Assembly (NCBI RefSeq): GCF_019801145.1
Contig: NZ_JAHVJQ010000010.1
Coordinates: 62,001-126,000 of the forward strand
DNA from: Leisingera aquaemixtae
Lineage (GTDB): Bacteria; Pseudomonadota; Alphaproteobacteria; Rhodobacterales; Rhodobacteraceae
Direction: 5' to 3'
Length of the DNA stretch: 64,000 nucleotides
The notes under the pieces are model-generated. The model was not told the origin of the DNA. It saw nothing but the letters and a program-made list of their open reading frames with translations, and made no database searches. A program made the position numbers and the translations under genes. Positions 41,539 to 57,433 of this stretch are shown here, in pieces (within the stretch, counting starts at the first letter, position 1; every line of letters starts with the position of its first letter).

Positions 41539-42531
41539 TCAGCTGGTAAAGGTGGCGCCTGCCCCCGCCGCATCAGCGCGGGAGCTTGCAAGGGTTGCGA
41601 TGGCGGTGTCCTGCACGCCGGTGCCGGTGAGGTCGGCAATGATCAGGTCGCTGGCGGACTGGCGGCCTTCGGCCTTGCCAGCAGCAATGTCTCCGAGTTC
41701 GGCAAAGCGGCGGTCCCCGGCGATCAGCCCCGCCGCCACGGCGCTGCGCAGCTCGCCCTTGTCGGCGCATTGCGCTTGGCTGTCGGGCACATAAAGGTCC
41801 GCCTTCGCCAGGCAGGCGGGGTCCAGCTCGCATTTGTGCGCTTGGTCCGATCCCATTGCGATCACCAGCTGCCCCGGCTGCAGCCAGTCGGCCCGGACCA
41901 CGGGCTCCGCCGCGGGGGTTGTGGTGACGACGATATCCGCCGATGCAACCGCCTGGGCGATATCCGTGCTGGCGGTGACATTCATTCCCAGGTCTTCGCG
42001 CAGGCCGGCGGCTGCGGCTTCTGCCTTGGCCGAGTCCCGCGCCCAGATTTCCGCGCTTTTGATGCCGCGCACCAGGGTCATCGCCTTTAGCTGCATCCGC
42101 GCCTGCACGCCCGCGCCGATAATGCAGACACGCGCTGCATCCTCCCGCGCCAAATGGCGCGCCGCGACCGCTCCCGCCGCGGCGGTGCGCACATCGGTAA
42201 GGTAGCCATTGTCCAGAAGCAGCGCCTCCAGCAGGCCGGTCTTGCTGGAAAACACCACCATCAGTCCGGTAGTGCTGGGCAGGCCGAGCCTGGGGTTGTC
42301 GAAGAACCCGGGGCTCATCTTCATGGCAAAGCTTTCGATGCCCGGCACATAGGCGGATTTCACGCAGACCTCGCCGTTATGGTCGGGGACCAGCAGCGTC
42401 ATGATCGGCGGCATCTCCACTCCGCCCCCGGCGAGCGTGGTAAATCCCTGTTCGACGCAGTCGACCGCGCCGGTATCAAGCGGCACCAGTACGCGCAGGT
42501 CCGCCTCGGTCAGGATCTTGATATCACGCAT
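41539..42531 (-). CDS. eutC: Ornithine cyclodeaminase-like protein EutC
   Basis: 330-aa member of the ornithine cyclodeaminase/mu-crystallin family with the NAD(P) site CIIGAGVQARMQLKAM and the KMSPGFFDNP segment. In ectoine clusters EutC is thought to act with EutB in converting hydroxyectoine to ectoine. The ATG at 42531 overlaps the end of eutB by 8 nt, so the two are coupled. Confidence 0.9.
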   Translation of the reverse strand: MRDIKILTEADLRVLVPLDTGAVDCVEQGFTTLAGGGVEMPPIMTLLVPDHNGEVCVKSAYVPGIESFAMKMSPGFFDNPRLGLPSTTGLMVVFSSKTGLLEALLLDNGYLTDVRTAAAGAVAARHLAREDAARVCIIGAGVQARMQLKAMTLVRGIKSAEIWARDSAKAEAAAAGLREDLGMNVTASTDIAQAVASADIVVTTTPAAEPVVRADWLQPGQLVIAMGSDQAHKCELDPACLAKADLYVPDSQAQCADKGELRSAVAAGLIAGDRRFAELGDIAAGKAEGRQSASDLIIADLTGTGVQDTAIATLASSRADAAGAGATFTS

Positions 42532-43531
42532 CCGCGCCACCCCCGCTTTCTGCCGCCATGTCCGCATCCTCGCCATCGATTATGCGCTTGTGCAGGCCCA
42601 TGCCGATGTTCTGGCCGCTGACCAGCACCGCGCAGCGCCCCGGCTCTTTGATCTTGCCCGCCAGCAACGCCGCGATGCCGACACTGCCGGAGCCCTCGAT
42701 CACCTGCCGCTCCTCGAAATAGGCGTGGCGGATGGCGGCGGCGATTTCCGCTTCGGAGACCAGAACCGCATCATTCACCAGCGCCTGCGTCATCTTGAAA
42801 GTATAGGCATTGTCGAGCCCGATGCCGCCGCCCAGCGAATCCGCCAGCGTCGGCAGCTCCTCGACCTGCACCGGCCTGCCCGCCTGCAGGCTGGCGTGCA
42901 TCGCAGCGCCGCGTTCCATGCTGACGCCGATGACGCGGATGTCCGGGTTTGCCGCCTTCATCACCATGCCGACGCCGGAGATCAGCCCGCCGCCCGAAAG
43001 CGGCACCAGCACCGTTTGCAGACCCGGCATCTGCTCCAGCATCTCCAGCGCCACGGTGCCTTGCCCGGCGATGACATCCGGGTGGTCAAACGGCGGCAGC
43101 ATGGTCATGCCTTCGGCGGTCAGCCGCTCCGCCTCTGCTTGCGCGTCATCCTGGGAGCGGCCAATGATGCGCACCTCGGCGCCGTGGGACCGGATGCCTG
43201 CGACCTTGTTCTGCGGCACCAGCTCCGACATGCAGATGACGCAGCGCACGCCGGACTGTGCCGCCGCATAGGCCAGCCCGCGCCCGTGGTTTCCGGTGGA
43301 AACGCCCACCACGCCCGCCGCGCGCTGTTCCGGCGTCAGCGACAGCACCGCGTTCACCGCGCCGCGCAGCTTGAAGCTGCCGGTGATCTGGCTGTTCTCC
43401 AGCTTCAGCGCCACCTGCCCGCCGCAGAGCCGGCTCAGCGTGGGCGAATCCATCATCGCGGTCTGACGGATGCGCCCCGCAATCCGCGCCCGGGCCTGAT
43501 AGCTGTGCTGAAGCGTGATCGTCTCTGTCAT
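42524..43531 (-). CDS. eutB: Hydroxyectoine utilization dehydratase EutB
   Basis: Fold II PLP enzyme of the threonine dehydratase family, 335 aa. The PLP lysine is Lys54 in GSFKLRGA; STGNHGRGLAYAA and the phosphate loop LSGGGLISGVG follow. With EutC it is implicated in hydroxyectoine degradation. A candidate EnuR operator lies about 130 nt upstream, so eutB likely starts the catabolic transcript. Confidence 0.9.
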   Translation of the reverse strand: MTETITLQHSYQARARIAGRIRQTAMMDSPTLSRLCGGQVALKLENSQITGSFKLRGAVNAVLSLTPEQRAAGVVGVSTGNHGRGLAYAAAQSGVRCVICMSELVPQNKVAGIRSHGAEVRIIGRSQDDAQAEAERLTAEGMTMLPPFDHPDVIAGQGTVALEMLEQMPGLQTVLVPLSGGGLISGVGMVMKAANPDIRVIGVSMERGAAMHASLQAGRPVQVEELPTLADSLGGGIGLDNAYTFKMTQALVNDAVLVSEAEIAAAIRHAYFEERQVIEGSGSVGIAALLAGKIKEPGRCAVLVSGQNIGMGLHKRIIDGEDADMAAESGGGADA

Positions 43532-43659
43532 CGGGCTCGTTCTGCAAGGCAGGTGTCAGGAAAGGCCCGCCGCAGCCTGCACCGGAACCCGTGGTTCCGG
43601 CCCGGCCGGCGCGCCCTGATCCAGCCTTGGAAAGACTTGTCCTGCGAGTCAATTTTTTT

Positions 43660-43673
43660 TTGTCGCGTGACAA
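43660..43673. promoter_or_regulatory. Candidate EnuR operator upstream of eutB
   Basis: TTGTC-GCGT-GACAA is a perfect inverted repeat with a 4-bp centre, adjoining the enuR stop and 129 nt before the eutB start. The same half-sites with a different centre occur at the enuR start (45061-45076). A T9 run lies beside it. EnuR is known in Ruegeria to repress its own gene and the catabolic genes, so two sites here fit. Confidence 0.6.
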
Positions 43674-45068
43674 TCAGAAAGCCAGTGCCGCCGCCGCCTC
43701 CGGCGGCTGGCGCAGCATTCCTGCCAGCAGCTCCAGCGCCTGCCGGAACCGGTCCGGATCCTGCACGCTGCCCAGCGAGATCCGCACTGCGTTCTGCGGC
43801 GGCACCCGCGGCGCCAGGAACGGGGTATCCGGTGCCACCGCGACATTCAGCTGCCGCGCGTAGGCCGCGAAGCCCTCGCTGGTCCAGCCGCCCGGCAGCG
43901 TCAGCCACAGGTGCAGCGCCGCCGGGTGGCCCTGCCAGTTCCAGCCCTGAAGCGCCTCCGCGGCGATGGCGTGGCGCTCCGCCAGGGCGCGGCGCTGCCA
44001 GCGGGCCAGCTCCAGCGCGGTGCCGTCCCGAACCCAGCGGCTGGCCAGCTCGCACACCAGCGGAGTGGCCATCCAGCTGAACACCACGATCCGCCCGGTG
44101 AGCGCGGGCAGCAGATGCTCCGGTGCTGCCAGATAGCCCGCCCGCAGCCCCGGCAATGTGCATTTGGTGAAGGTGGTCAGATACACAGTACGCTCCGGCG
44201 CCAGCGCCGCAACCGGCACCGGGCGGTCCTCTGCCACCGGGCCGAAAGCGTCGTTTTCGATGATCAGAAGATCATGGCGGCGGGCAACTTCCACCAGCGC
44301 CCGGCGCCGCGCCTCAGGCATCATCCCGGCAGTGGCATTGGCTAGGGAAGGAAGCAAAAACAACGCCTTGGGATTGTTGTTGCGGCAAAATTCCTGCAGC
44401 GCGTCCGGCAGCATCCCATCGCCATCCATTTCCAGCCCGGCCAGGGTCAGCCCCAGGCTGGCGCAGGCCGAGACCAGCAGGTGATGGGTGATCTTGTCCG
44501 CCACCACGGTGTCGCCGGGACGAGCCAGCGCCGTCAGTGCCGCCGACAGCCCGTGGCTGACCCCGTTGGTCATCAGGATCCGCCCGGCCGGCACCTCCAG
44601 CCCGCAGATCCTCAGCCACTCCGCGCCGGCCTGCCGGTGCGCCTCATGGCCCGCGTTGGGACGGGTGGACAGATAGCAGGACGGATCCAGCCCTTCCGGC
44701 AGCTGCTGCAGCGCCTGCTGGAACCGATCCGCGTGCAGCTGCGCAAACAGCGGCCGCGAAATTGACAAGTCAAAGCCGCCGCCGGTCTCCGATTGCAGCC
44801 GGTAGGGCGGGCTGCCGGCCGCCTCCGGCCCGGTCACAAAGCTGCCGCGTCCGACCTGGCCGTCGATCAGCCGCTGCCGCCGCAGGCTGTCATAGGCCTT
44901 GCTGACGGTGTGCACGCTCAAGCCCAGCTGCTCAGCCATCCGGCGGTGGGTCGGCAGCTGCGCCCCCTTGGCCCAGCGGCCGTCGGAAATTGCCTTGGCA
45001 AGCGCCTGCGCCAGGCTGGCATGCAGCGGAGAGGTCAGGGATTCGGGATCGGGATGCCACATTGTCAT
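43674..45068 (-). CDS. enuR: MocR/GntR-type regulator of ectoine use
   Basis: 464-aa chimeric regulator: an N-terminal GntR winged helix (LPTHRRMAEQLGLSVHTVSKAY) and a C-terminal fold I aminotransferase domain. The PLP lysine is Lys302 in TFTKCTLPGLRAGYL, the same number as I recall for the Ruegeria pomeroyi protein. EnuR represses ectoine genes until N-acetyl-diaminobutyrate or diaminobutyrate reacts with its PLP. The start is ATG 45068 or ATG 45062 (MTM); an inverted repeat covers both. It reads toward eutB, and can be co-transcribed with it. Confidence 0.9.
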   Translation of the reverse strand: MTMWHPDPESLTSPLHASLAQALAKAISDGRWAKGAQLPTHRRMAEQLGLSVHTVSKAYDSLRRQRLIDGQVGRGSFVTGPEAAGSPPYRLQSETGGGFDLSISRPLFAQLHADRFQQALQQLPEGLDPSCYLSTRPNAGHEAHRQAGAEWLRICGLEVPAGRILMTNGVSHGLSAALTALARPGDTVVADKITHHLLVSACASLGLTLAGLEMDGDGMLPDALQEFCRNNNPKALFLLPSLANATAGMMPEARRRALVEVARRHDLLIIENDAFGPVAEDRPVPVAALAPERTVYLTTFTKCTLPGLRAGYLAAPEHLLPALTGRIVVFSWMATPLVCELASRWVRDGTALELARWQRRALAERHAIAAEALQGWNWQGHPAALHLWLTLPGGWTSEGFAAYARQLNVAVAPDTPFLAPRVPPQNAVRISLGSVQDPDRFRQALELLAGMLRQPPEAAAALAF

Positions 45069-45076
45069 GCGACAAT
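45061..45076. promoter_or_regulatory. Candidate EnuR operator overlapping the enuR start codon
   Basis: ATTGTC-ATGC-GACAAT is a perfect 6-bp inverted repeat that contains the enuR start codon. On the minus strand TATGAT, a good -10 hexamer, lies directly upstream (45082-45077), which would place transcription start at or next to the ATG: a short-leader or leaderless mRNA. No SD precedes the ATG, in agreement. Confidence 0.6.
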
Positions 45077-45082
45077 CATAAC

Positions 45083-45398
45083 GGCAGCGGGGGGAGTTTC
45101 CCACCCCCCTTGCGCCGCTCCCGCAACTGCAGGCCCGGCCGCCTCGCACCCGGCACGCGCCGGATGACCGCCGCCTGGCCCGGCGGGATAGGTGCGCAGT
45201 TTAACTAACTTCAAAGCAACTAGCCGACCGCGCGTTAACCCAATGTTTGCTGCCCTTTCGGGACAATTGCGGCGGAAATCGGGCGGATCTGCCCCAATTG
45301 CCCGAATGGGGCCGTGAACATTCCCCATTCCGCCGGCAGCGTTAAGGTCCAGCCGCCCTGTTCCGGCTGCGTCCCTGCTGCCACGAGGAAATGCCAAC
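45083..45398. other. Divergent intergenic region enuR / kinase operon
   Basis: About 315 nt with no ORF I can support. It must hold the promoter of the plus-strand kinase-GTPase operon. The part around 45195-45300 is distinctly AT-richer than the flanking genes (e.g. TTAACTAACTTCAAAGC), and CCCCAATTGCCCGAATGGGG around 45294 is an imperfect palindrome. GAGGA at 45385 is the SD for the kinase. Confidence 0.4.
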
Positions 45399-46721
45399 GT
45401 GCCTCACGACACACCATCTGCCGATCCGGCACCGGTCTGCGAACTGCCCTGCGGCGTCAAGCTGCTCCAGGGCCAGTACCAGATCGAGCGGCCGCTCATC
45501 AGCGGCGGTTTCGGCATCACCTACCTGGCGCGCGACAGCCTGGAGCGGCGGGTGGTGATCAAGGAATGTTTTCCTGCCGGTCTTTGCCGCCGCGATGGCC
45601 ACGAGGTGGCGCCGGCCGCGCCGGAGCACGCCAAATCATGCCGCAACGTGCTGCGTGCCTTCCTGCGCGAGGCGCATCTGCTGGCCCGCGCCGAACATCC
45701 CGGCATCGTCGGTGTGCACCAGGTCTTCAAGGAAAACCAGACCGCCTATATCGCGATGGAATTCATCGACGGGCTGGACCTGCTGACGATCCGCGAGGAG
45801 CAGTCGGAGCGGCTGACCGCGCCGCTGCTGCGGCAGATCCTCGACCAGGCGCTGGAGGCGCTCGGCTGTCTGCACGGGCTGGGTATCCTGCACCGCGACA
45901 TCTCGCCCGACAACCTGCTTCTGGGCAAAGACGGCACCCTGACCCTGATCGATTTCGGCGCCGCGGCCGGCAGCACCCCGCGGGATGACACCGCGCTGCC
46001 TGTGCTGCTCGCGGTCAAGGACGGCTATTCCGCGCATGAGCTGTACAAGCCCGACCTGCCGCAGCGCCCGGCCTGCGATATCTACGCGCTTGGCGCCACC
46101 TTCTATTACCTGATCACCGGCGAGGTTCCGCCCGGCAGCCAACAGCGGCTGACCGCGGTGACGGCCGGCAACCCGGACCCCTGCCCGCCACTTCTGGGCG
46201 GCCCCTGGGCGGCGGATCCGGCGCTGCTGGCGACCGTGGACCAGGCCATGTCGGTGCTGCCGGCCGAGCGTTTCCAGTCCGCCCGCGCCTGGGCCGGGAT
46301 GCTGGCGGAATGCGATGCCGCGGACCCGGCGCTCGCCGCCGCCGCCCAGCCGCAGGCGGCCGCCGCGCTAGAGGACAGTGGCGCACTGGACCTGGCCATC
46401 GCCGATCTGGTCGCCGCCACCAATTCGAGCCTCACCCCAGGCCAGCCGCGCGCCGCCCGCCCGGACCCGGACCCGGCGCCGGAACCGGCTGCGGACAAGC
46501 CCTGCCAGATGGTCAATCTGTTCGGCGAGCCGGTCAGCGATCTGGAGGCCTGGCTGGCAGAGGAGGACGCCCTGGCGCGGCGAAGCAAGAACGCCCCTGC
46601 CGCCGGGCAGCCGCCCGCGGCGGCCGCCCTGGGGGAGGCGCCGCCCAAACCCACATTGGCAGGCCGCCTGCGCAGGATTTTCGGGTTCCAGAACGGCAGC
46701 CCGGCAACGGTTAAGAACTGA
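45399..46721 (+). CDS. Ser/Thr protein kinase (Hanks type), soluble
   Basis: 440 aa. The kinase domain (about 25-290) is intact: glycine loop LISGGFGITYLARD, Lys55 in VVIKECF, HRD at 165-167 in LHRDISPDNLLL, DFG at 185-187 in LIDFGAA. The C-terminal tail is Ala/Pro/Asp-rich and ends in a short basic amphipathic stretch (LAGRLRRIFGF). There is no transmembrane helix or PASTA repeat, unlike PknB. Start GTG at 45399 with GAGGA 9 nt before; an ATG at 45391 is out of frame. First gene of a plus-strand operon with an FHA protein and PP2C phosphatase, so reversible phosphorylation read by FHA is expected. Substrates are unknown. Confidence 0.88.
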   Translation: MPHDTPSADPAPVCELPCGVKLLQGQYQIERPLISGGFGITYLARDSLERRVVIKECFPAGLCRRDGHEVAPAAPEHAKSCRNVLRAFLREAHLLARAEHPGIVGVHQVFKENQTAYIAMEFIDGLDLLTIREEQSERLTAPLLRQILDQALEALGCLHGLGILHRDISPDNLLLGKDGTLTLIDFGAAAGSTPRDDTALPVLLAVKDGYSAHELYKPDLPQRPACDIYALGATFYYLITGEVPPGSQQRLTAVTAGNPDPCPPLLGGPWAADPALLATVDQAMSVLPAERFQSARAWAGMLAECDAADPALAAAAQPQAAAALEDSGALDLAIADLVAATNSSLTPGQPRAARPDPDPAPEPAADKPCQMVNLFGEPVSDLEAWLAEEDALARRSKNAPAAGQPPAAAALGEAPPKPTLAGRLRRIFGFQNGSPATVKN

Positions 46722-46732
46722 AGGAAACGGTT

Positions 46733-48145
46733 ATGAAGTTCATCAAGGATATCATCGGCGAAAAGCGGGAACGGGTCCGGATGGACGCGCCTGCCGCGGA
46801 ACCGGTGCAGCCGCCTCCGCAGGACCCCTTTGCCTCGCTCACCGGCGGGGCCGAGGCGGCGGCAGGCAGCGGCGGCGCGCCGCTCAGCCTGGACCGCGGC
46901 TTCCTGCTGGACCCGGATCCGGAAGAGGACACCGCTGAGGAGTTTTTCCTGCCGGAGGATTTCCTGGAAGACAGCCCCGCGGACTCGGACGAAGAGGACA
47001 CCGAGGCCGCTGCCGATCTGCAGGACATGGCAGAGGACATCACCGGCAGCCTGGACACCGGAGCACCTGAGGAGGACGCTATCGCCGCCTTCTTTGCCCG
47101 CGAGCAGGCCCCGGCGCCCGCCGCGGCCCCGCAGGCCGCCCCCGAGCCCGGGCAGGAACCGGCGCAGCCCGACACATTGGACGGCTTCGGCGCAGCCGCC
47201 GAGGAGCCGGAGCAGGAAGCCTATGCGCCGGAGGACGCTTACGCGGCTGGCGAAGACGAGAATGGCGGTTATCTGCCTGAGGATGAAGAAGATTTCCAGG
47301 ACACCTTCGAAGCGGAGGCCGATTTCGGCCGCCTGCAGCAGCCGGAGGCGGCGGCAGAGCGCCCGGGGGGCTACCGGATTTTCCGCCGCAATGCCGTCCG
47401 CGGCGCCGGCGAGCCCGAAACCGCTCCCGATGGACCTGCCGAAGCTCCGGAGGCGGCCGCCCCGCAGCCGGAAGCCGTGTCCGCGGCGGAGGACGGCCTG
47501 AGCGGGTCCACCCGGCCCGCGGCGCAGCCCGCTCCGCAAACGGCCTGGCAACCGGACCCGCAGGCTGCTGCTGAGGCCCCCCAGCCCGCTGCCCCGCAGG
47601 CACCGCCCGCCGCGGCTGCGCCGATCGACGTGCCCGCGCCCTCGATGGGCCGCGGCGCCAGCCGCGCAGGCCGCGTCAAGACCCGCCTGCTGGGCTTCAG
47701 CCCGGCGCAGGCGCCCGGCAGCGACCCGTTCTCGCGCAGTGCCGAGGGTGCCGCGCCCGGCTACACTCAGTTCCCGGTCGGCTGGCTGGCAGTGGTGCAG
47801 GGCCCGGGCCGCGGTGCCGCCTTCACCCTGTTCAGCGGCGTTTCCGTGATCGGCCGCGGCGAAGACCAGACCGTGCGGCTGGACTTCGGGGACAACAGTA
47901 TCTCGCGCGACAATCACGCCGCCATCGCCTATGACCCGGAGCAGAAGTCCTTTTACATCGGCCACGGCGGCAAGGCGAACCTGGTACGCCGCAACGGCCG
48001 CCCGGTGCTCAGCACCGAGGAGCTGGCGGCGGGCGACGTGATCCGCATCGGCGAAACCACACTGCGCTTCGTGCCGCTTTGCGGCGCTGATTTCGGCTGG
48101 GACCAGCCGCAGCAACGCGATGGCTCCCATGCTGCATTCAGCTGA
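46733..48145 (+). CDS. FHA-domain protein with long acidic linker
   Basis: 470 aa. Residues 1-20 (MKFIKDIIGEKRERVRMDAP) could form a basic amphipathic helix; residues about 20-345 are low-complexity and rich in Ala, Pro, Glu and Asp. The C-terminus (about 350-450) is an FHA domain with the phosphothreonine-reading residues in SVIGRGED and SISRDNHAAIA. It probably binds a site phosphorylated by the upstream kinase and scaffolds the complex. It lies 11 nt after the kinase and overlaps the phosphatase gene by 26 nt. FHA-kinase-PP2C trios also occur in type VI secretion loci, but no secretion genes are seen here. Confidence 0.85.
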   Translation: MKFIKDIIGEKRERVRMDAPAAEPVQPPPQDPFASLTGGAEAAAGSGGAPLSLDRGFLLDPDPEEDTAEEFFLPEDFLEDSPADSDEEDTEAAADLQDMAEDITGSLDTGAPEEDAIAAFFAREQAPAPAAAPQAAPEPGQEPAQPDTLDGFGAAAEEPEQEAYAPEDAYAAGEDENGGYLPEDEEDFQDTFEAEADFGRLQQPEAAAERPGGYRIFRRNAVRGAGEPETAPDGPAEAPEAAAPQPEAVSAAEDGLSGSTRPAAQPAPQTAWQPDPQAAAEAPQPAAPQAPPAAAAPIDVPAPSMGRGASRAGRVKTRLLGFSPAQAPGSDPFSRSAEGAAPGYTQFPVGWLAVVQGPGRGAAFTLFSGVSVIGRGEDQTVRLDFGDNSISRDNHAAIAYDPEQKSFYIGHGGKANLVRRNGRPVLSTEELAAGDVIRIGETTLRFVPLCGADFGWDQPQQRDGSHAAFS

Positions 48146-49133
48146 GCTCGAATACGACGCCGCGACGGCCATCAGCCAGGGCCGCCGCGACCGTCAGGAG
48201 GATGCCGTGGCGGCCGATTTCCTGGCCGGCGCCGGCACCGGCTTTGCGGTGCTGGCCGACGGCATGGGCGGCCATGCGGCGGGTGATGTCGCCGCCAAGA
48301 TCGTGGTCACCGAGGTGTTCAGCGAGCTGAAGCTGCGCGCGGGCGAGCCGGAGCAATTGGAGCCCGCCATCGGCGAGGTGCTGCATAGCGCCGCCGACGG
48401 CGCCAACGCCTGTCTCGGCGAATACGCCAGCCACCAGCCACAGCTGCGGGCCCAGGGCATGGGCGCCACCCTTCTGGCGCCGGTGCTGTTCCGCGACCGG
48501 CTCTACTGGATCTCGGTGGGGGACTCGCCGCTCTACCTGTTCCGCGACGGCGCGCTGATCCGTCTCAACGCCGACCACTCGATGGCAGCGGAGCTGGAGA
48601 AGCTGGTGGCGCGCGGCCGCATGGACCCGGCCGAGGCCGCCGCCCATCCGGACCGCCACTGCGTGACCTCGGTGCTGACCGGCGCCGACATCCCGCACAT
48701 TGACTGCCGCAGCGCCCCGGTGCGGCTGCAGCACGGCGATATCGTGCTGGCCGCCAGCGACGGGCTGCTGTTTCTGGCAGAAGAAGAGATTGCCGAAGTG
48801 CTGGCCGCCGAATGCTGCAGCCCCAGCGCCCGCATCGGCGCCGCGCTGATGCAGCGGCTGGAAGCGCTGGACGCGCCGGAGCAGGACAACGCCGCCTTCT
48901 GCGTGATCAAGCCTTTCGACCCGCAGGCAGCCCCCGAACTGCCCGCCCCGCCGCTCTCCGCCGAGGCCCCGGCGGCCGGGCCGCTGCCTGCGGAAGCGGA
49001 ACCGCTGCCGGGCAGCCAGCCCGCCGCTCCGGCCCGCCCGCGCACCGGCCGCCGGGTGATCACCTTCCTGGCCACCGCAACCTGGCGCGATACGCCTGGC
49101 GGCAGCCGCAGCAAGACGGATGCATCCGCGTGA
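48120..49133 (+). CDS. PP2C-type Ser/Thr phosphatase
   Basis: 337 aa. Metal-dependent PPM/PP2C phosphatase: GRRDRQEDAV with the acidic pair at 27-28, DGMGGHAAGD (47-56), WISVGDSPLYLFRDG, VLAASDGLLF and the final metal site QDNAAFCVI. The C-terminal 70 residues are a Pro/Ala-rich tail ending RRVITFLATATW. It presumably reverses the kinase. The start (ATG 48120, alternative 48129) lies inside the FHA gene; the stop overlaps the GTG of the next gene. Confidence 0.88.
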   Translation: MAPMLHSAELEYDAATAISQGRRDRQEDAVAADFLAGAGTGFAVLADGMGGHAAGDVAAKIVVTEVFSELKLRAGEPEQLEPAIGEVLHSAADGANACLGEYASHQPQLRAQGMGATLLAPVLFRDRLYWISVGDSPLYLFRDGALIRLNADHSMAAELEKLVARGRMDPAEAAAHPDRHCVTSVLTGADIPHIDCRSAPVRLQHGDIVLAASDGLLFLAEEEIAEVLAAECCSPSARIGAALMQRLEALDAPEQDNAAFCVIKPFDPQAAPELPAPPLSAEAPAAGPLPAEAEPLPGSQPAAPARPRTGRRVITFLATATWRDTPGGSRSKTDASA

Positions 49134-50317
49134 GCCTTCCCCAGAGAGACATAAGCCCGCTGGCAGGCCAGCTGGAGCGGACCCTCAGCACCGGCCTGCT
49201 GCCCTCGGAGGTCAGCGGCTGGGGTAGCCAGCTGCTGCAGCGCCTGCGCCAGCCGGTGCAGGTGGCGGTCGCTGGCGCCCCCGGCGCCGGCAAATCCGCC
49301 CTCATCGACATGCTGCTGGGCCGGGTGGTCATCGGCCGCAACGGCAGCGGCCTGCTCGTCGACATCTGCCACGGCCCGCAGGAGGCCGTGGTGTTCGAAT
49401 CCGCTGCCGGCGAGCGCCTGCAGCAGCCGGGCGTGCTCGCCCGCCTGGAGGTGCCGGAAGGCACCCGCCGCGCGCGCCAGATCCTGCCCGACCCGCAGCT
49501 GTGCTGGCACAGCTACCGCGAACTGCCGCTGGCCGGGCCGCAGGAGCGCCGCCACGACCTGCTGCAGCAGGCGGCGGCTTCGGCGGACATCATCCTGTGG
49601 TGCAGCCAGGACTTCCCTGCTGCCGAACAGGCGCTCTGGGCGGCGGTGCCCGACAGCACCAAGGACCACAGCTTTCTAGTGCTCACCATGGCCGACCGCC
49701 AAGTGATGCGCGGCACCCTGCCCGGCCTGATCGAAACGCTGGAGCCGATCGCCGCGGAGGAGTTCCTGGGCGTCTACCCGGTGGCCGCGATCCAGGGGCT
49801 GACCGCCCGCTCCGCAGAGGCGCCGCAGGACGGGCTCTGGCGCTCCAGCGGCGGCAAACAGCTGAGCGGCGACATGCTGCGGCAGGTGGAGCTGGGCCGC
49901 GCCTCGGATGTGGATCAGGCGGAGCTGCTGATCCGGCAGTTCGGAGGCTCGCTTCCGGCGGAAGCCGCGCCGCCGGTACCCGCTGCCGCATCCGCATTCG
50001 CGCAGCCCGCCAGCCTGGCGGCCGCGCTTGACCAGCTGCAGCAGGGCGCCGAGCAGATGCTGGCGGAAGCCGAGGCTGCCGGCGGCCCCCAGGCCGGCCC
50101 GGTGCTGGCCCAGTGCATGGAGCTGATCCGCGGCCTGTCGCAGTCGCTTGGCGCCCTGCCCCCCGGCGCCGCGGCGGATGCCGCCCGCGAGGCGGTGCAG
50201 GACGGCGAGGAGATGCTGATGCTGTGCCAGCTGGAACAGGACGAGGACGCAGCCATCGATGCGGTGACGCTGCTCATACAATTGAAGAAGGAGCTGTCCG
50301 GGGATCCGCCCGGATAA
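49130..50317 (+). CDS. P-loop GTPase-like protein with degenerate switch motifs
   Basis: 395 aa from GTG 49130, which overlaps the phosphatase stop (GTGA). A clear Walker A GAPGAGKSAL (residues 49-58) is followed by a dynamin/TrmE-type order. But no DxxG is found where the G3 motif should be (SYRELPLAGP instead), and G4 is represented only by LTMADRQ. The strand ADIILWCSQDF resembles the one in the GTPase encoded at 52468 (VDSVIWCTHAT), suggesting the two are related. The C-terminal half is helical (EQMLAEAEAA, MELIRGLSQSL, EEMLMLCQLEQDEDA). Hydrolytic activity is doubtful; it may bind nucleotide as a partner of the other GTPases. A hairpin follows it. Confidence 0.7.
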   Translation: MSLPQRDISPLAGQLERTLSTGLLPSEVSGWGSQLLQRLRQPVQVAVAGAPGAGKSALIDMLLGRVVIGRNGSGLLVDICHGPQEAVVFESAAGERLQQPGVLARLEVPEGTRRARQILPDPQLCWHSYRELPLAGPQERRHDLLQQAAASADIILWCSQDFPAAEQALWAAVPDSTKDHSFLVLTMADRQVMRGTLPGLIETLEPIAAEEFLGVYPVAAIQGLTARSAEAPQDGLWRSSGGKQLSGDMLRQVELGRASDVDQAELLIRQFGGSLPAEAAPPVPAAASAFAQPASLAAALDQLQQGAEQMLAEAEAAGGPQAGPVLAQCMELIRGLSQSLGALPPGAAADAAREAVQDGEEMLMLCQLEQDEDAAIDAVTLLIQLKKELSGDPPG

Positions 50318-50328
50318 GGCCCGCCGCC

Positions 50329-50369
50329 CCCTGCCCGCCTGCGCTGCCCTCCGGCGCCGGCGGGCAGGG
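50329..50369 (+). other. Strong intercistronic hairpin inside the kinase-GTPase operon
   Basis: CCCTGCCCGCC (50329-50339) and GGCGGGCAGGG (50359-50369) are a perfect 11-bp inverted repeat with a 19-nt loop in the 93-nt gap before the dynamin-like gene, the longest gap in the operon. No U-tract follows, so it is more likely an RNA stability or attenuation structure than a full terminator. Confidence 0.5.
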
Positions 50370-50410
50370 CAACAGAAGAAACGCCAAAGCAGGACACAGC
50401 AGGTTCCGCC

Positions 50411-52471
50411 ATGAACATGGAAAACCAGATCGAGAGTGCCACCGACATCCGCGCCTCCGCGCGGCCCACCAACCTGAGCGCCGGGCTGGAGCCGCTGGCG
50501 GCCTATGCCCGCAAGGCGCGGCGGCTGGACGGCGCGCTCACCGCCCTGCAGGAGGTTGCAGGCCAGCGGGTCCAGCGCAGCCTCGCCCGTCTGCAAGAGG
50601 AACTGGCCGCCTTCGAGCCCAGCGTCACGCTGCTGGGGCAGGTCAAATCCGGCAAGACCTCGCTGGTCAACGCGATGGCGGGCTGGGCCGACCTCCTGCC
50701 GTCCGACGTGAATCCCTGGACCTCGGTTGTCACCTCTCTGCATTTGGAGCCAGGCGACAGCCGCATCGAAAACAAGGCCAGCTTTCAATTCATGACCGAG
50801 GAGGAATGGGACCGGCTGACCACCAAGGGCGGCCGCATCGGCGAAATGGCGGGCCGCGCCGGCGCCGGCAGCGAGCTGCAGAAGATCCGTGCCCAGATCG
50901 AGGAGATGCGCGACCGCTCCCGCCAGCGGCTGGGCCGCAAGTTCGAGCTCCTGATGGGCCAGAAGCACGACTACGGCTATTTCGACAAGAACCTGATCGA
51001 ACGCTACATCTGCCTCGGCGACGACTTCGACGGCGAGGATCTGGGCGAGGTCGACGAACAGGGCCGCTTTGCCGACATCACCCGCGCCGCCGATCTGTAC
51101 CTGAACTGCCACAGCGTGCCGCACCGTCTCTGCCTGCGCGACACACCGGGCGTCAACGACACCTTCATGATGCGCGAGCAAATCACCATCCAGGCGATCC
51201 GCGACAGCCGCATCTGCGTGGTGGTGCTGTCGGCGGGCCAAGCGTTGACCTCGGTCGACATGGGGCTGATCCGGATGATCTCCAACCTCAAGTCGCGCGA
51301 GGTGGTGATTTTCGTCAACCGCATCGACGAGCTGGCCGACCCGGCAAACCAGATCGCCGAGATCGAAGCCAGCATCCGCCAGACCCTGGAGACCCACCAT
51401 GGGCCGCAGGAGGCCACCATCCTGTTCGGCAGCGCCTACTGGGCCAACAAGGTGTTGACCGGCGGGCTGGAGGATATGGACCCGGCCAGCTCCGCCGCGC
51501 TGATCAACTGGGCCGAGGCGTCGGTCAATGCATCCCACGCCAAGGCCACCGCTCAGAATATGGTGTGGGAGCTGTCGGGGATCCCGGCCCTCAACCGCGC
51601 CGTTTCCGAACGCATTGCCGCCGACCTTGGCGCGCCGCTGCTGGAGCGCATCGCTGCCTCCGCTACCACCGCCGCCACCGGCCAGCAGGCCGCCAATGCG
51701 GTGCTGGTGCAGGGCGAGGGCAGCGGCGGCGGCGCCAACATGCACGACGTCCGCACCGCCTTCGAGGGGATTTGCCAGACCCATATGGAAGCGCTGGAAG
51801 CGGAGCTGAAGCTTGTGCTCGACACCTTCCGCGACCGCGCCGACCGGGCCCATGCCACCTTTACCGACCGGGCCACCCATTCGCTGATCGACCATCTGGA
51901 GAAATGGGGCGAGGACTGCCATTGGGAATATGACCCGGCCGGGCTGCGGATGCTCCTGCGCTCTGCCTACTCGGTGATGGCCAGCCGCCTGCAGTCCGCC
52001 TCCCTGGTCCGCTACGAGGCCGCGGTGCAGGATGTGGCAGAGCTGCTCTATGACGGTTTCGGCCAGGCGGTCGAGGGTATCCAGCTGGCGGTGCCGGAAG
52101 TGCCCCAGCCCGCCTCCCCGGTGGCCCTGGCGCAGTCTATTGCGCTTGATTTCAACGACAGCTGGTGGGCCTCCTGGTGGCGCCGCACCCGCGGCTACAA
52201 GGCCTTTGCCAAACAGTTTCGCAAATTGATCGCAGGCGAGACAGAGGATTTCATGACCCAGCTCAAGACCGTGCAGACGGCGGACGCACGCGCCGCTATC
52301 CTCGCCCGGCTTCAGACCTTCTTCGACGATCAGCGCGACATCCTGCTGGAAATCGCCGACTGCTCCCGCGGCGGCGGCGACATGCAGGCGCTGTTTGCCG
52401 GCGATGAGGCCGGCCGCCGCCAGTCACAGACCGCTACTGCCATGGAAACACTCAGGAGTTTCACCGCATGA
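50411..52471 (+). CDS. Dynamin-like large GTPase
   Basis: 686 aa. GTPase domain near the N-terminus after a helical lead-in: G1 GQVKSGKTS (76-84), G2 in PWTSVVTSLHL, G3 DTPGVND (244-250), G4 NRID (303-306). An insertion of about 120 residues between G2 and G3 holds a helical, charged segment (EIMRDRSRQR-like). After about 400 the chain is mostly helical, with a tryptophan-rich patch DSWWASWWRRTRGY (583-596) that could insert into membranes. This is the layout of bacterial dynamin-like proteins. Translation overlaps the next GTPase gene by 4 nt. It probably acts on a membrane under control of the kinase/FHA/phosphatase module; that link is inferred from the operon only. Confidence 0.8.
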   Translation: MNMENQIESATDIRASARPTNLSAGLEPLAAYARKARRLDGALTALQEVAGQRVQRSLARLQEELAAFEPSVTLLGQVKSGKTSLVNAMAGWADLLPSDVNPWTSVVTSLHLEPGDSRIENKASFQFMTEEEWDRLTTKGGRIGEMAGRAGAGSELQKIRAQIEEMRDRSRQRLGRKFELLMGQKHDYGYFDKNLIERYICLGDDFDGEDLGEVDEQGRFADITRAADLYLNCHSVPHRLCLRDTPGVNDTFMMREQITIQAIRDSRICVVVLSAGQALTSVDMGLIRMISNLKSREVVIFVNRIDELADPANQIAEIEASIRQTLETHHGPQEATILFGSAYWANKVLTGGLEDMDPASSAALINWAEASVNASHAKATAQNMVWELSGIPALNRAVSERIAADLGAPLLERIAASATTAATGQQAANAVLVQGEGSGGGANMHDVRTAFEGICQTHMEALEAELKLVLDTFRDRADRAHATFTDRATHSLIDHLEKWGEDCHWEYDPAGLRMLLRSAYSVMASRLQSASLVRYEAAVQDVAELLYDGFGQAVEGIQLAVPEVPQPASPVALAQSIALDFNDSWWASWWRRTRGYKAFAKQFRKLIAGETEDFMTQLKTVQTADARAAILARLQTFFDDQRDILLEIADCSRGGGDMQALFAGDEAGRRQSQTATAMETLRSFTA

Positions 52472-53436
52472 CGTATCAGACTGCCTCGCAGGCCACCGCT
52501 CCTGCTGCCGCCCCCTTCGCCCCTGAAGCCGCCCTGCCGCGCAAGCCCCGGCTGGCGCTGATGGGCGAATTCAGCGCCGGCAAGAGCACTCTCACCAACC
52601 TGCTGGTCGGCCGCCAGCCGCTGCCGACCCGGGTTACCGCCACCCGCCTGCCGCCGGTGTGGATCTCGCACGGGGCGGAGGGCGCCCGCCTTGTCGGCAC
52701 CGACGGCAGCGAGGCGCCGGTGCCGCTGGAGGATCTGGCCAGCGTGCCGCTGGAAACCACTGCGCTGATCCGCCTGAGCCTGCCCGCCGAGGCACTGGAG
52801 CTGTGCGACCTGATCGACATGCCCGGGATTTCCGATCCCAACATGCCCGCCAGCGTCTGGCAGAACCTGCTGCCGGAGGTCGACAGCGTGATCTGGTGCA
52901 CCCATGCCACCCAGGCCTGGCGCCAGTCCGAAGCCGCCGCCTGGGAGGAGATCGCGGCCCGCCTCGATGCCCCCAGCACCCTGCTGATCACCCATTTCGA
53001 CAAGCTCAAGACCCCGCGTGACCGCGACCGGGTGCTGCGCCGGGTGCAGAAGGAAACCGGCGATGCCTTCAACGCCATCTTCCCGCTGTCGCTCAGCCAG
53101 GCGCTCTCCGCCGGCGAGGACATGGAGGCCTGGAAGACCAGCGGCGCCGACGGGTTCATCGAATACCTGGTCGACCTGCTGCTGAACTGGTCGCAGCCGG
53201 GGCGCGGTAGCACGGCGGCCCGGGATCGGGCTGCGGCGCAGCCGCTGCAGCCCGATCAGGCGCTGCGGGCAGAGGTGCTTGACATCGCCGCCCCCCGCGG
53301 CAGCAGCGCCCAGCCGCCGGTGCCCGCCGAGGCCGAAGGCGGCCCGCGGGTGACGCCGCGCCGGGTGTCAGCCGCCTCGCGGCGCAGCCCGCGGCCGGAC
53401 CGCCTGCCTCCCGAAGCACCGTTTGACAGCGAGTAA
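52468..53436 (+). CDS. Small dynamin/Era-like GTPase
   Basis: 322 aa. G1 GEFSAGKST (about 33-41) after a short Ala/Pro-rich leader, a candidate G2 threonine in TRVTATRLP, G3 DMPGISDP and G4 THFDK. The GEFSAGKST form is typical of the dynamin-like family. The last 90 residues are disordered and Pro/Arg-rich. ATGA overlap with the large dynamin-like gene implies a fixed ratio of the two, as in paired bacterial dynamins. It lies 60 nt before the next gene. Confidence 0.8.
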   Translation: MTYQTASQATAPAAAPFAPEAALPRKPRLALMGEFSAGKSTLTNLLVGRQPLPTRVTATRLPPVWISHGAEGARLVGTDGSEAPVPLEDLASVPLETTALIRLSLPAEALELCDLIDMPGISDPNMPASVWQNLLPEVDSVIWCTHATQAWRQSEAAAWEEIAARLDAPSTLLITHFDKLKTPRDRDRVLRRVQKETGDAFNAIFPLSLSQALSAGEDMEAWKTSGADGFIEYLVDLLLNWSQPGRGSTAARDRAAAQPLQPDQALRAEVLDIAAPRGSSAQPPVPAEAEGGPRVTPRRVSAASRRSPRPDRLPPEAPFDSE

Positions 53437-53496
53437 GGACGCCATGCCGCCACGACCCGTGCCACAGCCCGTGCAGGCCCGCAGCGGAGGGAGCCG

Positions 53497-53877
53497 ATGA
53501 CTCTGGCCCGCCAGCTCGACGATCTGCGCCGCCAGGAGCCCGGCTGCCGCCTGGCTGCCTTCGGCGATCTCGGCGCCAGCATTGTCCTGCGCAGCAGCAG
53601 CGCGTCCGGCCACCCGCAGGAATACCTTGACGATCTCTGCCAGCAGGCCCGGCGCGGGTTCCTGGCGCTGGATGCCGCCGCCCGGGCGGCGGGCACCGCA
53701 GCGGCGGCCCCGGCGGACGACGTGCTGGTGCTGGCCCCGGGCGAGGCACGGCTGTTCCTGCGCGCCGCGGGCGGGACCGGCGATGCGGTGCTCTGCGTTT
53801 GCTCCGATGCCGATGCCGCCACCCGGCTGGCCTTCCCGGCGCGCCAGCTGCTGGCAGCCCTGGACGGGGGGGTGTGA
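53497..53877 (+). CDS. Small protein, possibly Roadblock/LC7-like
   Basis: 126 aa, no signal peptide. The pattern of an N-terminal helix, CRLAAFGDLGASIVLRSS, a central helix with YLDDLCQQARRGF, and two late strands (ARLFLRAAGG and AVLCVCSDADAA) followed by a C-terminal helix resembles Roadblock/LC7 domains, which act as partners of small GTPases (MglB type). That assignment is tentative. The SD GGAGGGAGCCG precedes the ATG; its stop overlaps the next start (TGATG). Confidence 0.5.
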   Translation: MTLARQLDDLRRQEPGCRLAAFGDLGASIVLRSSSASGHPQEYLDDLCQQARRGFLALDAAARAAGTAAAAPADDVLVLAPGEARLFLRAAGGTGDAVLCVCSDADAATRLAFPARQLLAALDGGV

Positions 53878-54647
53878 TGGCGGATCCGGCACATCAGGCC
53901 CCGAAGCAGCAGACCGCCGCGGCAAAGCTGCGTCAGGCGCTGGCCCGGCTGACGGAACCGGCAGACGCCGGACCGGCGGCCGGGCAGGAAAGCCTCAGTG
54001 CCGCCGTGCTGCGGGAAATCAGCGAAACCGTGCTGCCGCGCCAGTTGACCCTGGTGATCGGGCAGCAGCCTGCCGCAAGCCTCACCCTTGCGCAGCGCAG
54101 GCTGGCGGGCCTCAGCCTGGCCGCCGCCGCAGACTCCTCCCCCGCCGCCGAGGATCCGGCCGCAGCGGCGCAGCTGTTTGCCGCCCGCCTGCGCCGCCTG
54201 GAGGCGGCGGCTGAGGCGCAGGGCCGGGGCTTCTGCTTCCGCCGCCGCCCCTGCGCTGCACCGCAGGGGGCCGGCAGCTGCTCGGCCCGGATGCTGGAGG
54301 CCGCGCTCTCTGCCGTCGGCCACGGGCCGCTGGACCGCTTCCGTGCCCAGGCCGCCGACCAGGCCGCTGCCTGGCTTTACTGCCCCCGCGGCAGCGGCTC
54401 CGCCGAATCCGCCGGTCCTGCGCCGCTGCTGGCCCAGCTGGAGGCGGTGCGCAACGCGCTCATCGCCCGCGCCGCCCGCCCCGCCTCTGCCCGGGTGCCG
54501 GTGCCGAAACCCGACTGCCTGCTGCTGCCGGTCTCGCCGCAGCAGCATATCCTTGCGGCCTCCGACGGCGGCGCGCTGCTGCTTCTGGCGCTGCCGCCCG
54601 CCGCGGCCAAGGCCCAGGCCGCCGCCTGGAGCAGCATCTACGGCTGA
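53877..54647 (+). CDS. Unrecognised Ala-rich protein, last gene of kinase-GTPase operon
   Basis: 256 aa from ATG 53877, overlapping the previous stop by one base. I do not recognise a family. It is strongly Ala/Leu-rich and mostly helical, with an N-terminal charged part, a cysteine-bearing middle (GFCFRRRPCAAPQ and GSCSARMLE) and a C-terminus with PDCLLLPVSPQQHILAASDG followed by LLLLALPPAAA, which could be a Roadblock-like strand pair. There is no signal peptide; the late hydrophobic stretch is short. It is included because of the coupled start, GC/codon pattern and continuity with the operon. Confidence 0.6.
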   Translation: MADPAHQAPKQQTAAAKLRQALARLTEPADAGPAAGQESLSAAVLREISETVLPRQLTLVIGQQPAASLTLAQRRLAGLSLAAAADSSPAAEDPAAAAQLFAARLRRLEAAAEAQGRGFCFRRRPCAAPQGAGSCSARMLEAALSAVGHGPLDRFRAQAADQAAAWLYCPRGSGSAESAGPAPLLAQLEAVRNALIARAARPASARVPVPKPDCLLLPVSPQQHILAASDGGALLLLALPPAAAKAQAAAWSSIYG

Positions 54648-55326: not shown

Positions 55327-55403
55327 GGTCCCTTAGCTCAACTGGATAGAGCAGCTGACTTCTAATCAGCAGGTTGAGGGTTCGAGTCCTTCAGGGATCG
55401 CCA
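55327..55403 (+). tRNA. tRNA-Arg (anticodon TCT)
   Basis: 77-nt cloverleaf with encoded CCA. Acceptor GGTCCCT (55327-55333) pairs with AGGGATC (55393-55399); D arm GCTC/GAGC; anticodon stem GCTGA/TCAGC with loop CTTCTAA, giving anticodon TCT at 55361-55363; T arm GAGGG/CCTTC with TTCGAGT; discriminator G, CCA at 55401-55403. It decodes AGA. Arg tRNA genes are frequent integration sites, and transposition-gene debris follows, but I found no repeated copy of the 3' end in the window. Confidence 0.95.
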
Positions 55404-55565: not shown

Positions 55566-57433
55566 TCAGCTCATGAGCGTGTTCAGGACGGGTGCAACCT
55601 CCTTTTGGAGGTAGATCGGTCCGATAGCCACACCATTCAGCCGGAAAGCTTCAATCCCGTGAGCTGCAAAAGCCGCCAGAATCGTGTTCCGGTGAAGCCC
55701 GGTCTCCTTCACTATCACCGTCGGCGTGGTGAACTTGTCATGGAAAGCAGCGATGTCCGCACCGGACATCCGCCACTGGGAGCGCTTTGTCAGCGGGTGC
55801 AGAACCTCCATCGCAGGCGTATGGCCACCTTCGATCAACGCTTGGAGCGCCCCCTTCTCCCGCACTCCGATTGAGCGGGCAAAGGCAGTTGCGTTCATCT
55901 CCCCTTCCATGGCCGCCATTTTCTGCTCGCGGGAGCGAAGTAACTCCGACTGATCAACTTCGGCAACGTTGACGACGAGTCCGTGATACCCAAACGCCTC
56001 AGCGCGCTTGCCGACCCTCAATCTGCCGTCCCTGATCGCAGCGATAACCTGGCCGACAGAAAGACCCACTCGCTTGTGAACATGCTGGATCGTTTCCCAT
56101 CCTAGCGTACCAGCTTCTAGCAAAATAGCTTTTCGCTCCAACTCCTCGAGCAGGTGCAGCCCATCAGACACCCGCCAGGGAGACTTGATCGTTGCAACTT
56201 TCGTCCTGGGCGCCAGCACGCCGTCAGCTTTTAGAGATTTGAGTTCGACTAGCGTCGCGCCCATAGCTTTGCGCATCGCAATCGGCCCGACCAAAGTCGG
56301 GATCTCCTCCAGAAGGGGTTTGTATTTCTTTGCGTCGAAGGTCTTGCGAGCATCAGCGCGCGTGTCATCAGGAGGGAACGCTCCAGCCTCAGTCAGGAAG
56401 CCGTTGAGGACCGACTTGCCGACCCCGGTTTCCCTGCTTGCCGAGGCAAGAGAATGGAGGCGTCGTTCAGGCACGGTTTGACCGAGAACCTCATCTCCCG
56501 CCTCGACCGGCCAGATCCTCAACAAATGCCGACGTACAATATCGCGAAACCCATCAAAGCTATCATCGCTGCGATAGAGGCGACCAAGTGCCTCGAGCAG
56601 CATCGGCAATGCCTGTTTTGATCCAAAGTATCCCCCTCCCCCGCCAGCAAAATGCCATCGAGCGCACACGTGATTTCCTCAGGCCCTCTCGATGCGGCAT
56701 CAAAGCCTTTGGCCTTCTCAGCACGGTCGTCAGCTTCAAGTTCCTGAGCACGAAGGAGTTCCTTGCCAAGCAACGCACAGCAGGTCATGGCGGCAAACAA
56801 AGGCTGAGTTGCCAGCCACGTTTTGTCCTCACCTTGCGACAGGCGCCGATCAAGCCAGGCGTCATAGGCGGACGGCTCAATCAGATCGCTGTCAAAATTG
56901 CCCGCCAGAAGGTCTGGCAGGATTTCAGCCAATCTGGCACCAGCATCATCACGATTTACAGGCCGCGAGCTTTCCCAAAGTGGCATCAGAGGATGGCAGT
57001 GCCGCAAGCACACATCAACACCGCGGCACAGCCAGTCTCCCGCCATGGCCATGTGCCTCAGCGGAGAGGCTTGTTTTTCTGCCGCCTCACGCAGGCAATG
57101 AGGTCAGCCGCGGATGATAGGGTTGCGTACGGCGCGGGAGACAAAAACTTCCCCGCGAAATTTCATGCGTACGTCCCCGACTGGCTCACCTGTCCATGAC
57201 AGCATGGTGGCCAGCTGACCGGGCGCCAAACCGGATCGGGTGGCAAAAATGTCCATCGCCTCCCGCTCCTGGTTCAGGATCCGCTTGAAACTAAAGCCAA
57301 GATCAAGGGCAAATCCGGTGGCGTCGGTACCATTGATCGCAGCCATGCGCGAAAAGAAGGAGGGAAGTGTCTCACGCTCCGAAGGTTCGACCGCCAGGGG
57401 TAACGTTTCTATCAACGGGGTACTCCGTTTCAT
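55566..57433 (-). pseudogene. tniQ: TniQ-family transposition protein, interrupted by a stop and a frameshift
   Basis: Read through its defects this gives about 622 aa. The N-terminus is a TniQ domain (LPSFFSRMAAINGTDATGF, TMLSWTGEPVGDVRMKF, RGEVFVSRAVRNPIIRG, then PHCLREAAEKQ); several HTH-like segments follow, e.g. SVGQVIAAIRDGRL and VIVKETGLHRNTIL. Lesion 1: TGA at 57104-57106 replaces the Cys of the zinc motif CPHC (a TGC to TGA change). Lesion 2: the C-rich run at 56632-56645 is one base short; restoring one G on the minus strand joins LLAGEGGYFGSKQALPM. TniQ/TnsD proteins select targets for Tn7- and Tn5053-like elements; no TniA/TniB/TnsABC gene is present in the window. The lesions look recent. 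Confidence 0.75.

Follow-up and report, generated by a model that had tools for sequence, protein, structure and literature searches.

The stretch of DNA analysed here, 64,000 nucleotides from Leisingera aquaemixtae (Rhodobacteraceae) and hereafter called the window, carries a run of eight open reading frames on its forward strand between 45399 and 54647. We label them kin, FHA, PP2C, GTP1, DYN, GTP2, U7 and U8 (Table 1). An initial annotation had called eight genes here, and all eight are real. They encode a kinase, an FHA protein, a phosphatase, three GTPase-like proteins and two small proteins. The components are of known kinds. A description of this operon was not found in the open-licence PubMed Central (PMC) literature, and as far as that literature was searched the combination is undescribed.

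Table 1. Features of the eight-gene operon in the window and of selected related loci.
Feature	Position or locus	Strand	Description
kin	45399..46721	+	Hanks-type Ser/Thr kinase, 440 aa, GTG start
FHA	46733..48145	+	Pro/Ala/Glu-rich long N-terminus, FHA domain at C-terminus
KTRLLGF motif in FHA protein	47678..47698	+	residues 316-322, upstream of FHA domain; candidate phospho-threonine T317
PP2C	48120..49133	+	Stp1-like protein phosphatase
GTP1	49130..50317	+	degenerate (pseudo-)GTPase, GTP2 paralogue, GTG start
DYN	50411..52471	+	dynamin-like GTPase, 686 aa, C-terminal half of 310 residues
WWxxWWxRRRGY motif in DYN	52163..52198	+	residues 585-596; candidate membrane-contact motif
GTP2	52468..53436	+	dynamin-type G-domain, then short tail
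U7	53497..53877	+	Roadblock/LC7-fold protein, 126 aa
U8	53877..54647	+	256 aa; probable Roadblock/longin-type domain in C-terminal half
GTP2-type/roadblock-like fusions	L090:11085-12488; L202:6862-8124; L204:6335-7843; L205:6822-8243
Operon directly upstream of MreB-called gene	L059, L060, L061, L062, L069, L192		MreB-called gene downstream of U8

The eight genes and their products

Kin is matched by Pkinase of Pfam (9.2e-28). Its catalytic features are kept in an alignment of 38 loci, namely the G-loop, K55, HRDISPDN at residues 165-172 and DFG at residues 185-187. The kinase had been annotated as soluble, in line with our scan for transmembrane (TM) segments, which found no TM-like segment in the window's kin. 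Of the 12 kinases that exceed 560 aa, 11 do have one; four of these 11 (L046, L048, L054, L058) are encoded in loci where all eight genes are in place. Certain variant loci contain additional proteins with a substrate-binding annotation; LysM is matched in one of them (2.7e-7, locus L092), and one added protein has a sub-threshold SBP_bac_3 match (0.0026). The TM-like kinases together with these LysM and solute-binding-type neighbours suggest an input from the envelope.

The FHA domain (2.8e-7 in Pfam) occupies residues 372-440 of its protein, and R375, S391 and H395 are conserved in the alignment. Of 40 FHA proteins, 37 have a motif of the KTRLLGF class, which the seven other operon proteins lack. 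In GarA and OdhI the FHA domain reads a phospho-mark within the same protein. By analogy, T317 within KTRLLGF may be the phosphorylated residue. The phosphatase is matched by PP2C_2 (1.8e-11) and by NF033484 (1.7e-37, under the curated cut-off of that model), and it keeps the motifs DGMGGH, SDG and QDN.

The initial annotation counted three dynamin-type GTPases, a count that stands for two of them. Dynamin_N is found in DYN (2.9e-13) and GTP2 (6e-10), while GTP1 gives only sub-threshold P-loop matches in Pfam. Among 40 complete loci, DYN keeps the P-loop in 40, DTPGVNDT in 40 and NRIDEL in 37; GTP2 keeps GEFSAGKS in 37 and DxPGxSD in all 40, and its TxxDK is visible in A3. The GTPase motifs G1, G3 and G4 are recognisable in both proteins. 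GTP1 is clearly a relative of GTP2 in hhalign (probability 99.8, E 3.9e-28, 213 columns), but DxPG is absent from all 40 copies, and 29 of them have a standard P-loop. From these motifs, GTP1 is classed as a pseudo-GTPase, a degenerate homologue of GTP2. DYN and GTP2 are more distant from each other (probability 83, E 9.1e-6, 77 columns).

The nearest solved structures of DYN are 5owv_A (7.4e-10) and then 2j68 (4.1e-9), and that of GTP2 is 5owv_C (1.9e-17, profile positions 17-232). 5owv_A and 5owv_C are the two partners of the Campylobacter dynamin-like protein (DLP) pair. GTP2, with a median of 311 aa against 614 aa for Cj-DLP2, appears too short for neck and trunk bundles like those of Cj-DLP2; it seems to have no C-terminus of stalk length. 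The longer form, GTP2L, has in its consensus a low-complexity tail that is acidic and Pro-rich. In the C-terminal half of DYN, WWxx[WF][WF]x[RK] is found in 66 of 82 DYN proteins and in 0 of 18 DYNB proteins. The window's WWxxWWxRRRGY may touch the membrane.

No family above threshold was found for U7 and U8 in Pfam, NCBIfam or PADLOC. In the AlphaFold2 model of U7 (predicted local distance difference test score, pLDDT, 94.6) the elements follow the order helix-strand-strand-helix-strand-strand-strand-helix, which is the alpha-beta-beta-alpha-beta-beta-beta-alpha order of Roadblock/LC7. The best Foldseek match is 3kye_C, a Roadblock/LC7 domain from Streptomyces (E 9.3e-6, template-modelling score 0.78, probability 1.00), and MglB (1j3w, 3t12) is also matched. 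For comparison by hhalign, a Roadblock profile was made of 24 Roadblock proteins gathered with PF03259. U7 aligns with it at E 1.8e-5 (probability 78, 116 columns), compared with 0.7 for FHA, 0.074 for PP2C and 0.38 for GTP1 as controls. The possible Roadblock protein of the initial annotation is, by its predicted fold, a Roadblock/LC7 protein.

U8, left as an unknown in that annotation, is probably related. Its model (pLDDT 87.8, predicted template-modelling score 0.69) shows the order of elements of U7 in the C-terminal half. This half aligns with the Roadblock profile at 8.8e-4 (probability 23, 79 columns), and whole U8 at 0.0062. MON1-CCZ1 complexes come first in Foldseek (2.6e-4 and 6.6e-4), but they superpose poorly, with a root-mean-square deviation of 13-15 Å; single Roadblock-type chains are matched at about 1e-2. 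With moderate confidence, U8 probably holds a domain related to Roadblock/longin in its C-terminal half. Direct hhalign comparisons of U7 with small roadblock-like proteins (E 0.015, probability 3; E 0.0026, probability 12) and with U8 (0.052 and 0.031) do not show sequence homology; the case for U7 and U8 is built on the fold and on the comparison with genuine Roadblock proteins. Against PDB sequences, the U7 profile gave chance matches only and the small roadblock-like profile gave none.

Loci without the kinase trio (kin, FHA, PP2C), which often read DYN-GTP2L-DYNB-GTPB, contain a conserved small protein, about 118 aa long. Its Roadblock signal is weak: Robl_LC7 is matched at 0.034-0.035 in two of six proteins and in none of seven others, hhalign against the Roadblock profile gives 7.1e-4 (probability 26), and an NCBIfam scan of the domain gave nothing useful. 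In four variant proteins a GTP2-type dynamin G-domain is fused to a C-terminal roadblock-like domain of this type. These natural fusions suggest contact between GTP2 and roadblock-type proteins.

Overlaps in the window are 26 bp for FHA-PP2C, 4 bp for PP2C-GTP1, 4 bp for DYN-GTP2 and 1 bp for U7-U8; for PP2C our own gene calls favour 48129 over 48120 as the start. Among 41 loci a distance of <=10 bp is found for FHA-PP2C in 41, for PP2C-GTP1 in 39, for U7-U8 in 22, for DYN-GTP2 in 21 and for kin-FHA in 13. GTP1 and DYN are 93 bp apart in the window (median 145 bp) and GTP2 and U7 60 bp (median 68 bp), and each of these joints is <=10 bp in 2 of 41 loci. The translational coupling claimed earlier for the whole order is, judged from this spacing, right for FHA-PP2C-GTP1 and often right for DYN-GTP2 and U7-U8, and it is absent at GTP1/DYN and GTP2/U7.

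Conservation of the order and its two modules

Homologues of DYN (E <=1e-5) are found in 78 of 295 Rhodobacteraceae genomes, including that of the window. From 73 of the other 77 genomes we fetched 80 places and called their genes with our own script; G022, G059, G147 and G159 were left out of the fetch. The complete order kin-FHA-PP2C-GTP1-DYN-GTP2-U7-U8 is found at 40 of the 80 places, in 38 of the 73 genomes, so the same eight-gene order does exist in other Rhodobacteraceae and its two halves do co-occur. Incomplete places hold runs of five to seven genes (14 places, several cut by contig ends) or of zero to three (26 places). The neighbours of the 40 complete loci, two genes on each side, are highly varied: 76 upstream genes fall into 64 families and 79 downstream genes into 59, none of them present in more than five loci. 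This variety indicates that the unit starts at kin and stops at U8. From the gene orders, chance is not the explanation for the eight-gene arrangement.

A second, named collection consists of the best 80 of 543 stretches encoding a DYN relative. It comes partly from the same genomes and is not independent of the first set. The complete order is found in 63 of these 80, and the other 17 loci are cut by contig ends, miscalled or without a gene. L060 (whose DYN is split by a stop), L091 and L095 are excluded from the positional profiles, yet they are among the 41 loci used for the gap distances; L066, L068 and L195 were taken out of the U8 alignments by hand. In close Leisingera relatives, with DYN identities of 91-93%, the operon lies on plasmids. 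The Leisingera aquaemixtae plasmid record NZ_CP041163.1 (L091), 32,785 bases and labelled linear, holds all eight genes.

At the level of the phylum, a DYN profile finds 9 of 398 genomes at 1e-10, eight of the same family (own genome included) and one of another family of the class, and a GTP2 profile also finds 9 of 398. At the level of the class, the DYN profile finds 2 of 385 genomes, both Rhodobacteraceae. The outsider (G649) has DYNB-like and GTP2-like genes, and the other parts were not found in the 20 kb fetched. From these counts, the system is nearly confined to Rhodobacteraceae at this sensitivity.

The variant loci reveal two separable modules, kin-FHA-PP2C(-GTP1) and DYN-GTP2(-U7-U8). 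DYN is directly followed by GTP2 or GTP2L for 78 of 80 DYN genes, forming a side-by-side pair. Among 75 DYN places, at least one trio gene is found at 56, GTP1 at 54 and both at 52. In one genome (G003) a single 3.56-Mb contig holds kin-FHA-PP2C-GTP1 at 3.39 Mb but the DYN pair at 0.30 Mb, and in another (G221) kin-FHA-PP2C and DYN are on different contigs.

Co-occurrence was examined with an FHA profile in 50 hand-picked genomes. It is found in five of five operon genomes, in 4 of 10 DYN genomes without a complete operon at the examined places, and in 1 of 35 genomes without DYN, five of these 35 being so classed by their absence from the DYN homologue matches. The difference between 4/10 and 1/35 has a one-sided Fisher value of 0.006, with relatedness uncorrected. 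The single match without DYN is weak (1.1e-24) and lacks the KTRLLGF part, and in two of the four FHA genomes FHA lies away from DYN. The kinase module and the DYN module are associated even when they are unlinked. The link between kinase trio and GTPases, which had been drawn from gene order and overlaps in one genome, extends beyond that genome, as seen from the recurring order with its differing neighbours, the FHA counts and the separate unit of G003.

Places without the trio often read DYN-GTP2L-DYNB-GTPB. This arrangement, with no kinase trio in the fetched stretch, is seen in L079, L083-L087, L196, L199, L235 and L237. In Rhodobacter sp. CZR27, all four GTPases of the set are named "dynamin family protein" by NCBI. 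L206 (7606-8964) and L207 (7586-8803) encode a P-loop protein of 405-452 aa between U8-like and DYNB genes; it has weak AAA/ABC matches only and may replace GTP1 or GTP2.

A possible phosphorylation-gated dynamin complex and its alternatives

We tentatively read the operon as encoding a phosphorylation-gated, dynamin-like membrane-remodelling complex, a reading to which we give slightly less than an even chance. Control of the GTPases and of membrane remodelling by phosphorylation had been proposed in the initial annotation, and we likewise infer it. The GTPase core would consist of DYN as the large DLP and GTP2 as its G-domain partner. U7 and probably U8 would be Roadblock-family regulators or platforms of this core, with GTP2 as the first target. 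Kin would phosphorylate the FHA protein, with T317 as the candidate site, and perhaps also a GTPase or a roadblock subunit. The FHA domain would read the mark, either inside its own protein in the manner of GarA and OdhI or on a partner, and PP2C would reset it. GTP1, whose hydrolysis motif is lost and which accompanies the kinase module, would mimic GTP2 and, as an adaptor, connect the switch to the DLP core. Judging from the TM-like kinases and the LysM and solute-binding-type neighbours in variant loci, envelope state is probably what is sensed; the window's own kinase, being soluble, would receive its signal in the cytoplasm.

The Campylobacter jejuni pair Cj-DLP1/Cj-DLP2 (PDB entry 5owv) is a lipid-binding and lipid-tethering 2:2 tetramer, according to the available part of PMC6104087. 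The operon resembles it in having two dynamin-type GTPases side by side, each nearest to one of the two partners, and differs in that GTP2 is a G-domain with a short tail. It also adds six genes, among them those for kinase, FHA, PP2C, pseudo-GTPase and roadblock proteins, that the same part of PMC6104087 does not mention for Cj-DLP.

A stronger form of this proposal is doubtful, although conceivable. The operon would then encode a bacterial dynamin 'signalosome', in which a DLP pair is equipped with a Hanks kinase, FHA reader, phosphatase, pseudo-GTPase adaptor and roadblock/longin-type regulators of its own, and an envelope signal switches membrane tethering, fusion or fission post-translationally. 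It would be the first such case, with a logic that is elsewhere seen in the membrane-traffic GTPases of eukaryotes and their roadblock/longin platforms. If true, it would also show, in a prokaryote, dynamin-family G-domains under the action of roadblock-type regulators, a description of which was not found in the open-licence PMC literature. The on/off control of bacterial dynamins is largely open, and the operon would make this question testable in cultivable marine genera such as Leisingera, Ruegeria and Roseovarius.

Several observations weigh against a gated complex. At 19 of the 75 DYN places no trio gene is found in the fetched stretch, which indicates that the DLP core does not always require phosphorylation. 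The sequence distances of kin and DYN are correlated (r 0.80, 0 of 999 permutations), but without control for the species tree, and the correlation may reflect common descent. The GTP1/DYN joint, where the two modules meet, appears to be translationally uncoupled. A single transcript is putative. No sigma-70-like promoter site was found in the operon, and a search for internal terminators gave four terminator-like sites, all on the opposite strand, against 3.8 expected; an internal promoter or terminator was set aside. GTP2, to judge from its length, stops shortly after the G-domain, unlike Cj-DLP2; the membrane-binding elements of the operon proteins remain candidates; and the fused small domain is only weakly identified as roadblock.

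An unlikely alternative, though one to be taken seriously, is that two independent systems are neighbours here, a kinase module whose target lies elsewhere and a DLP pair together with its roadblock proteins, which only shared transfer or expression would keep side by side. The modules can indeed be separate (L278, L279, L092, and the 19 DYN places without trio genes), the GTP1/DYN joint is uncoupled, and in close relatives within Leisingera the operon is plasmid-borne. Such independence fits poorly with the fact that 40 of the 80 places have all eight genes in order, with the FHA counts of 4/10 against 1/35, where two of the four lie away from DYN, and with the position of GTP1, a GTP2 homologue, in the kinase module. 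That the trio instead controls in trans a type VI secretion system (T6SS) encoded elsewhere is very improbable. The threonine-phosphorylation pathway of T6SS, PpkA/PppA/Fha, shares with the operon a kinase, an FHA reader and a PP2C phosphatase. The operon holds no tss gene, so the earlier statement that it lacks secretion genes is correct for the operon itself; the genome, however, has a T6SS (TssB-family genes) on another contig (C5), and no trio homologue was found near it (E <=1e-3, 40 kb examined), as would suit control in trans. TssB is matched in 13 of 40 operon genomes (four of the 40, G061, G269, G025 and G058, not being complete by our own gene caller) and in 6 of 40 others, a weak excess (one-sided p 0.057) that also counts against a dynamin-directed switch. 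The TssB match is absent in 27 of the 40 operon genomes, and 39 of the 40 reach a completeness of 90% or more. Control of a T6SS is therefore not what the operon generally does and was set aside as such, although control in trans is conceivable in this one genome; unlike PpkA/PppA/Fha, the operon is not encoded within a T6SS and does not in general depend on one. The five GTPase/roadblock genes would also be left unexplained.

KKP (kinase-kinase-phosphatase) modules and dynamins that confer phage tolerance provide the comparison for another idea, anti-phage defence, in which phosphorylation would release a membrane-acting DLP. We consider it rather unlikely. The patchy distribution of DYN (78 of 295 genomes), the plasmid carriage in relatives and the PADLOC scores (kin against mad6 1.1e-42, DYN against LeoA 5.5e-11) speak for it, but the kinase matches in PADLOC are generic to Hanks kinases. 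PHROGs gives no match at 1e-3 for DYN, GTP2, U7 or U8. A location in a defence island was set aside: the 64 immediate neighbours of the 40 complete loci that passed a length and position filter were scanned with PADLOC, which at 1e-10 gave five member matches from four families, with no control set. LeoABC is a system of enterotoxigenic E. coli. The DYN match to LeoA covers residues 240-413 only, DYN matches LeoBC at 5.9e-4, and the likeness of GTP2 is partial (LeoA 4.6e-4, LeoBC 5.2e-3); the eight-gene order differs from the three-gene composition of leoABC. As described in the available part of PMC11341870, KKP consists of a PP2C followed by a pair of kinases, of which one carries a cold-shock domain and the other an FHA domain, and is mostly prophage-borne. 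The operon shares with KKP a Hanks kinase, a PP2C phosphatase and an FHA domain, but its gene order is unlike that of KKP in this source: one kinase, a separate FHA gene and five GTPase/roadblock genes place it outside that definition.

About equally improbable is a polarity or cell-growth module, with roadblock proteins and G-domains as an MglA/MglB-like switch and DYN as a scaffold rather than a membrane remodeller. U7 resembles MglB in its fold, and as in MglA/MglB a Roadblock protein is encoded with GTPases; six related loci adjoin a gene called MreB by Pfam (five of them scanned). These six look like one clade, however, and the other neighbours vary. The partners here are dynamin-type G-domains and not small GTPases of the MglA type, and in DYN the dynamin-type motifs are all present and the C-terminal half is long. 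A role of the MglB kind, as a GTPase-activating protein for a partner GTPase, is a further step, as the fusions suggest contact only. As far as size alone goes, the genes that follow the MreB-called gene could be those for mreC, mreD, a PBP2 and RodA.

Other systems and the surroundings of the operon

The DO-GTPase/GAP1 conflict systems of PMC7159879 likewise place a GTPase pair in a multi-gene operon. They differ in that dynamin is not named in the available part of that article (0 occurrences). The hallmarks of these systems, zinc ribbons and GAP1, were not seen in a Pfam scan of the eight proteins.

Downstream of the operon, a tRNA-Arg(tct) lies at 55327-55403 on the forward strand. It is followed at 55566-56669 on the reverse strand by an open reading frame of 367 aa, which has no Pfam or PHROG match and is perhaps a remnant of a mobile element. 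Upstream, at 41539-45149 on the reverse strand, ornithine cyclodeaminase-like, PALP-type and GntR/aminotransferase (MocR-type) genes stand in a row and resemble an ectoine-degradation cluster.

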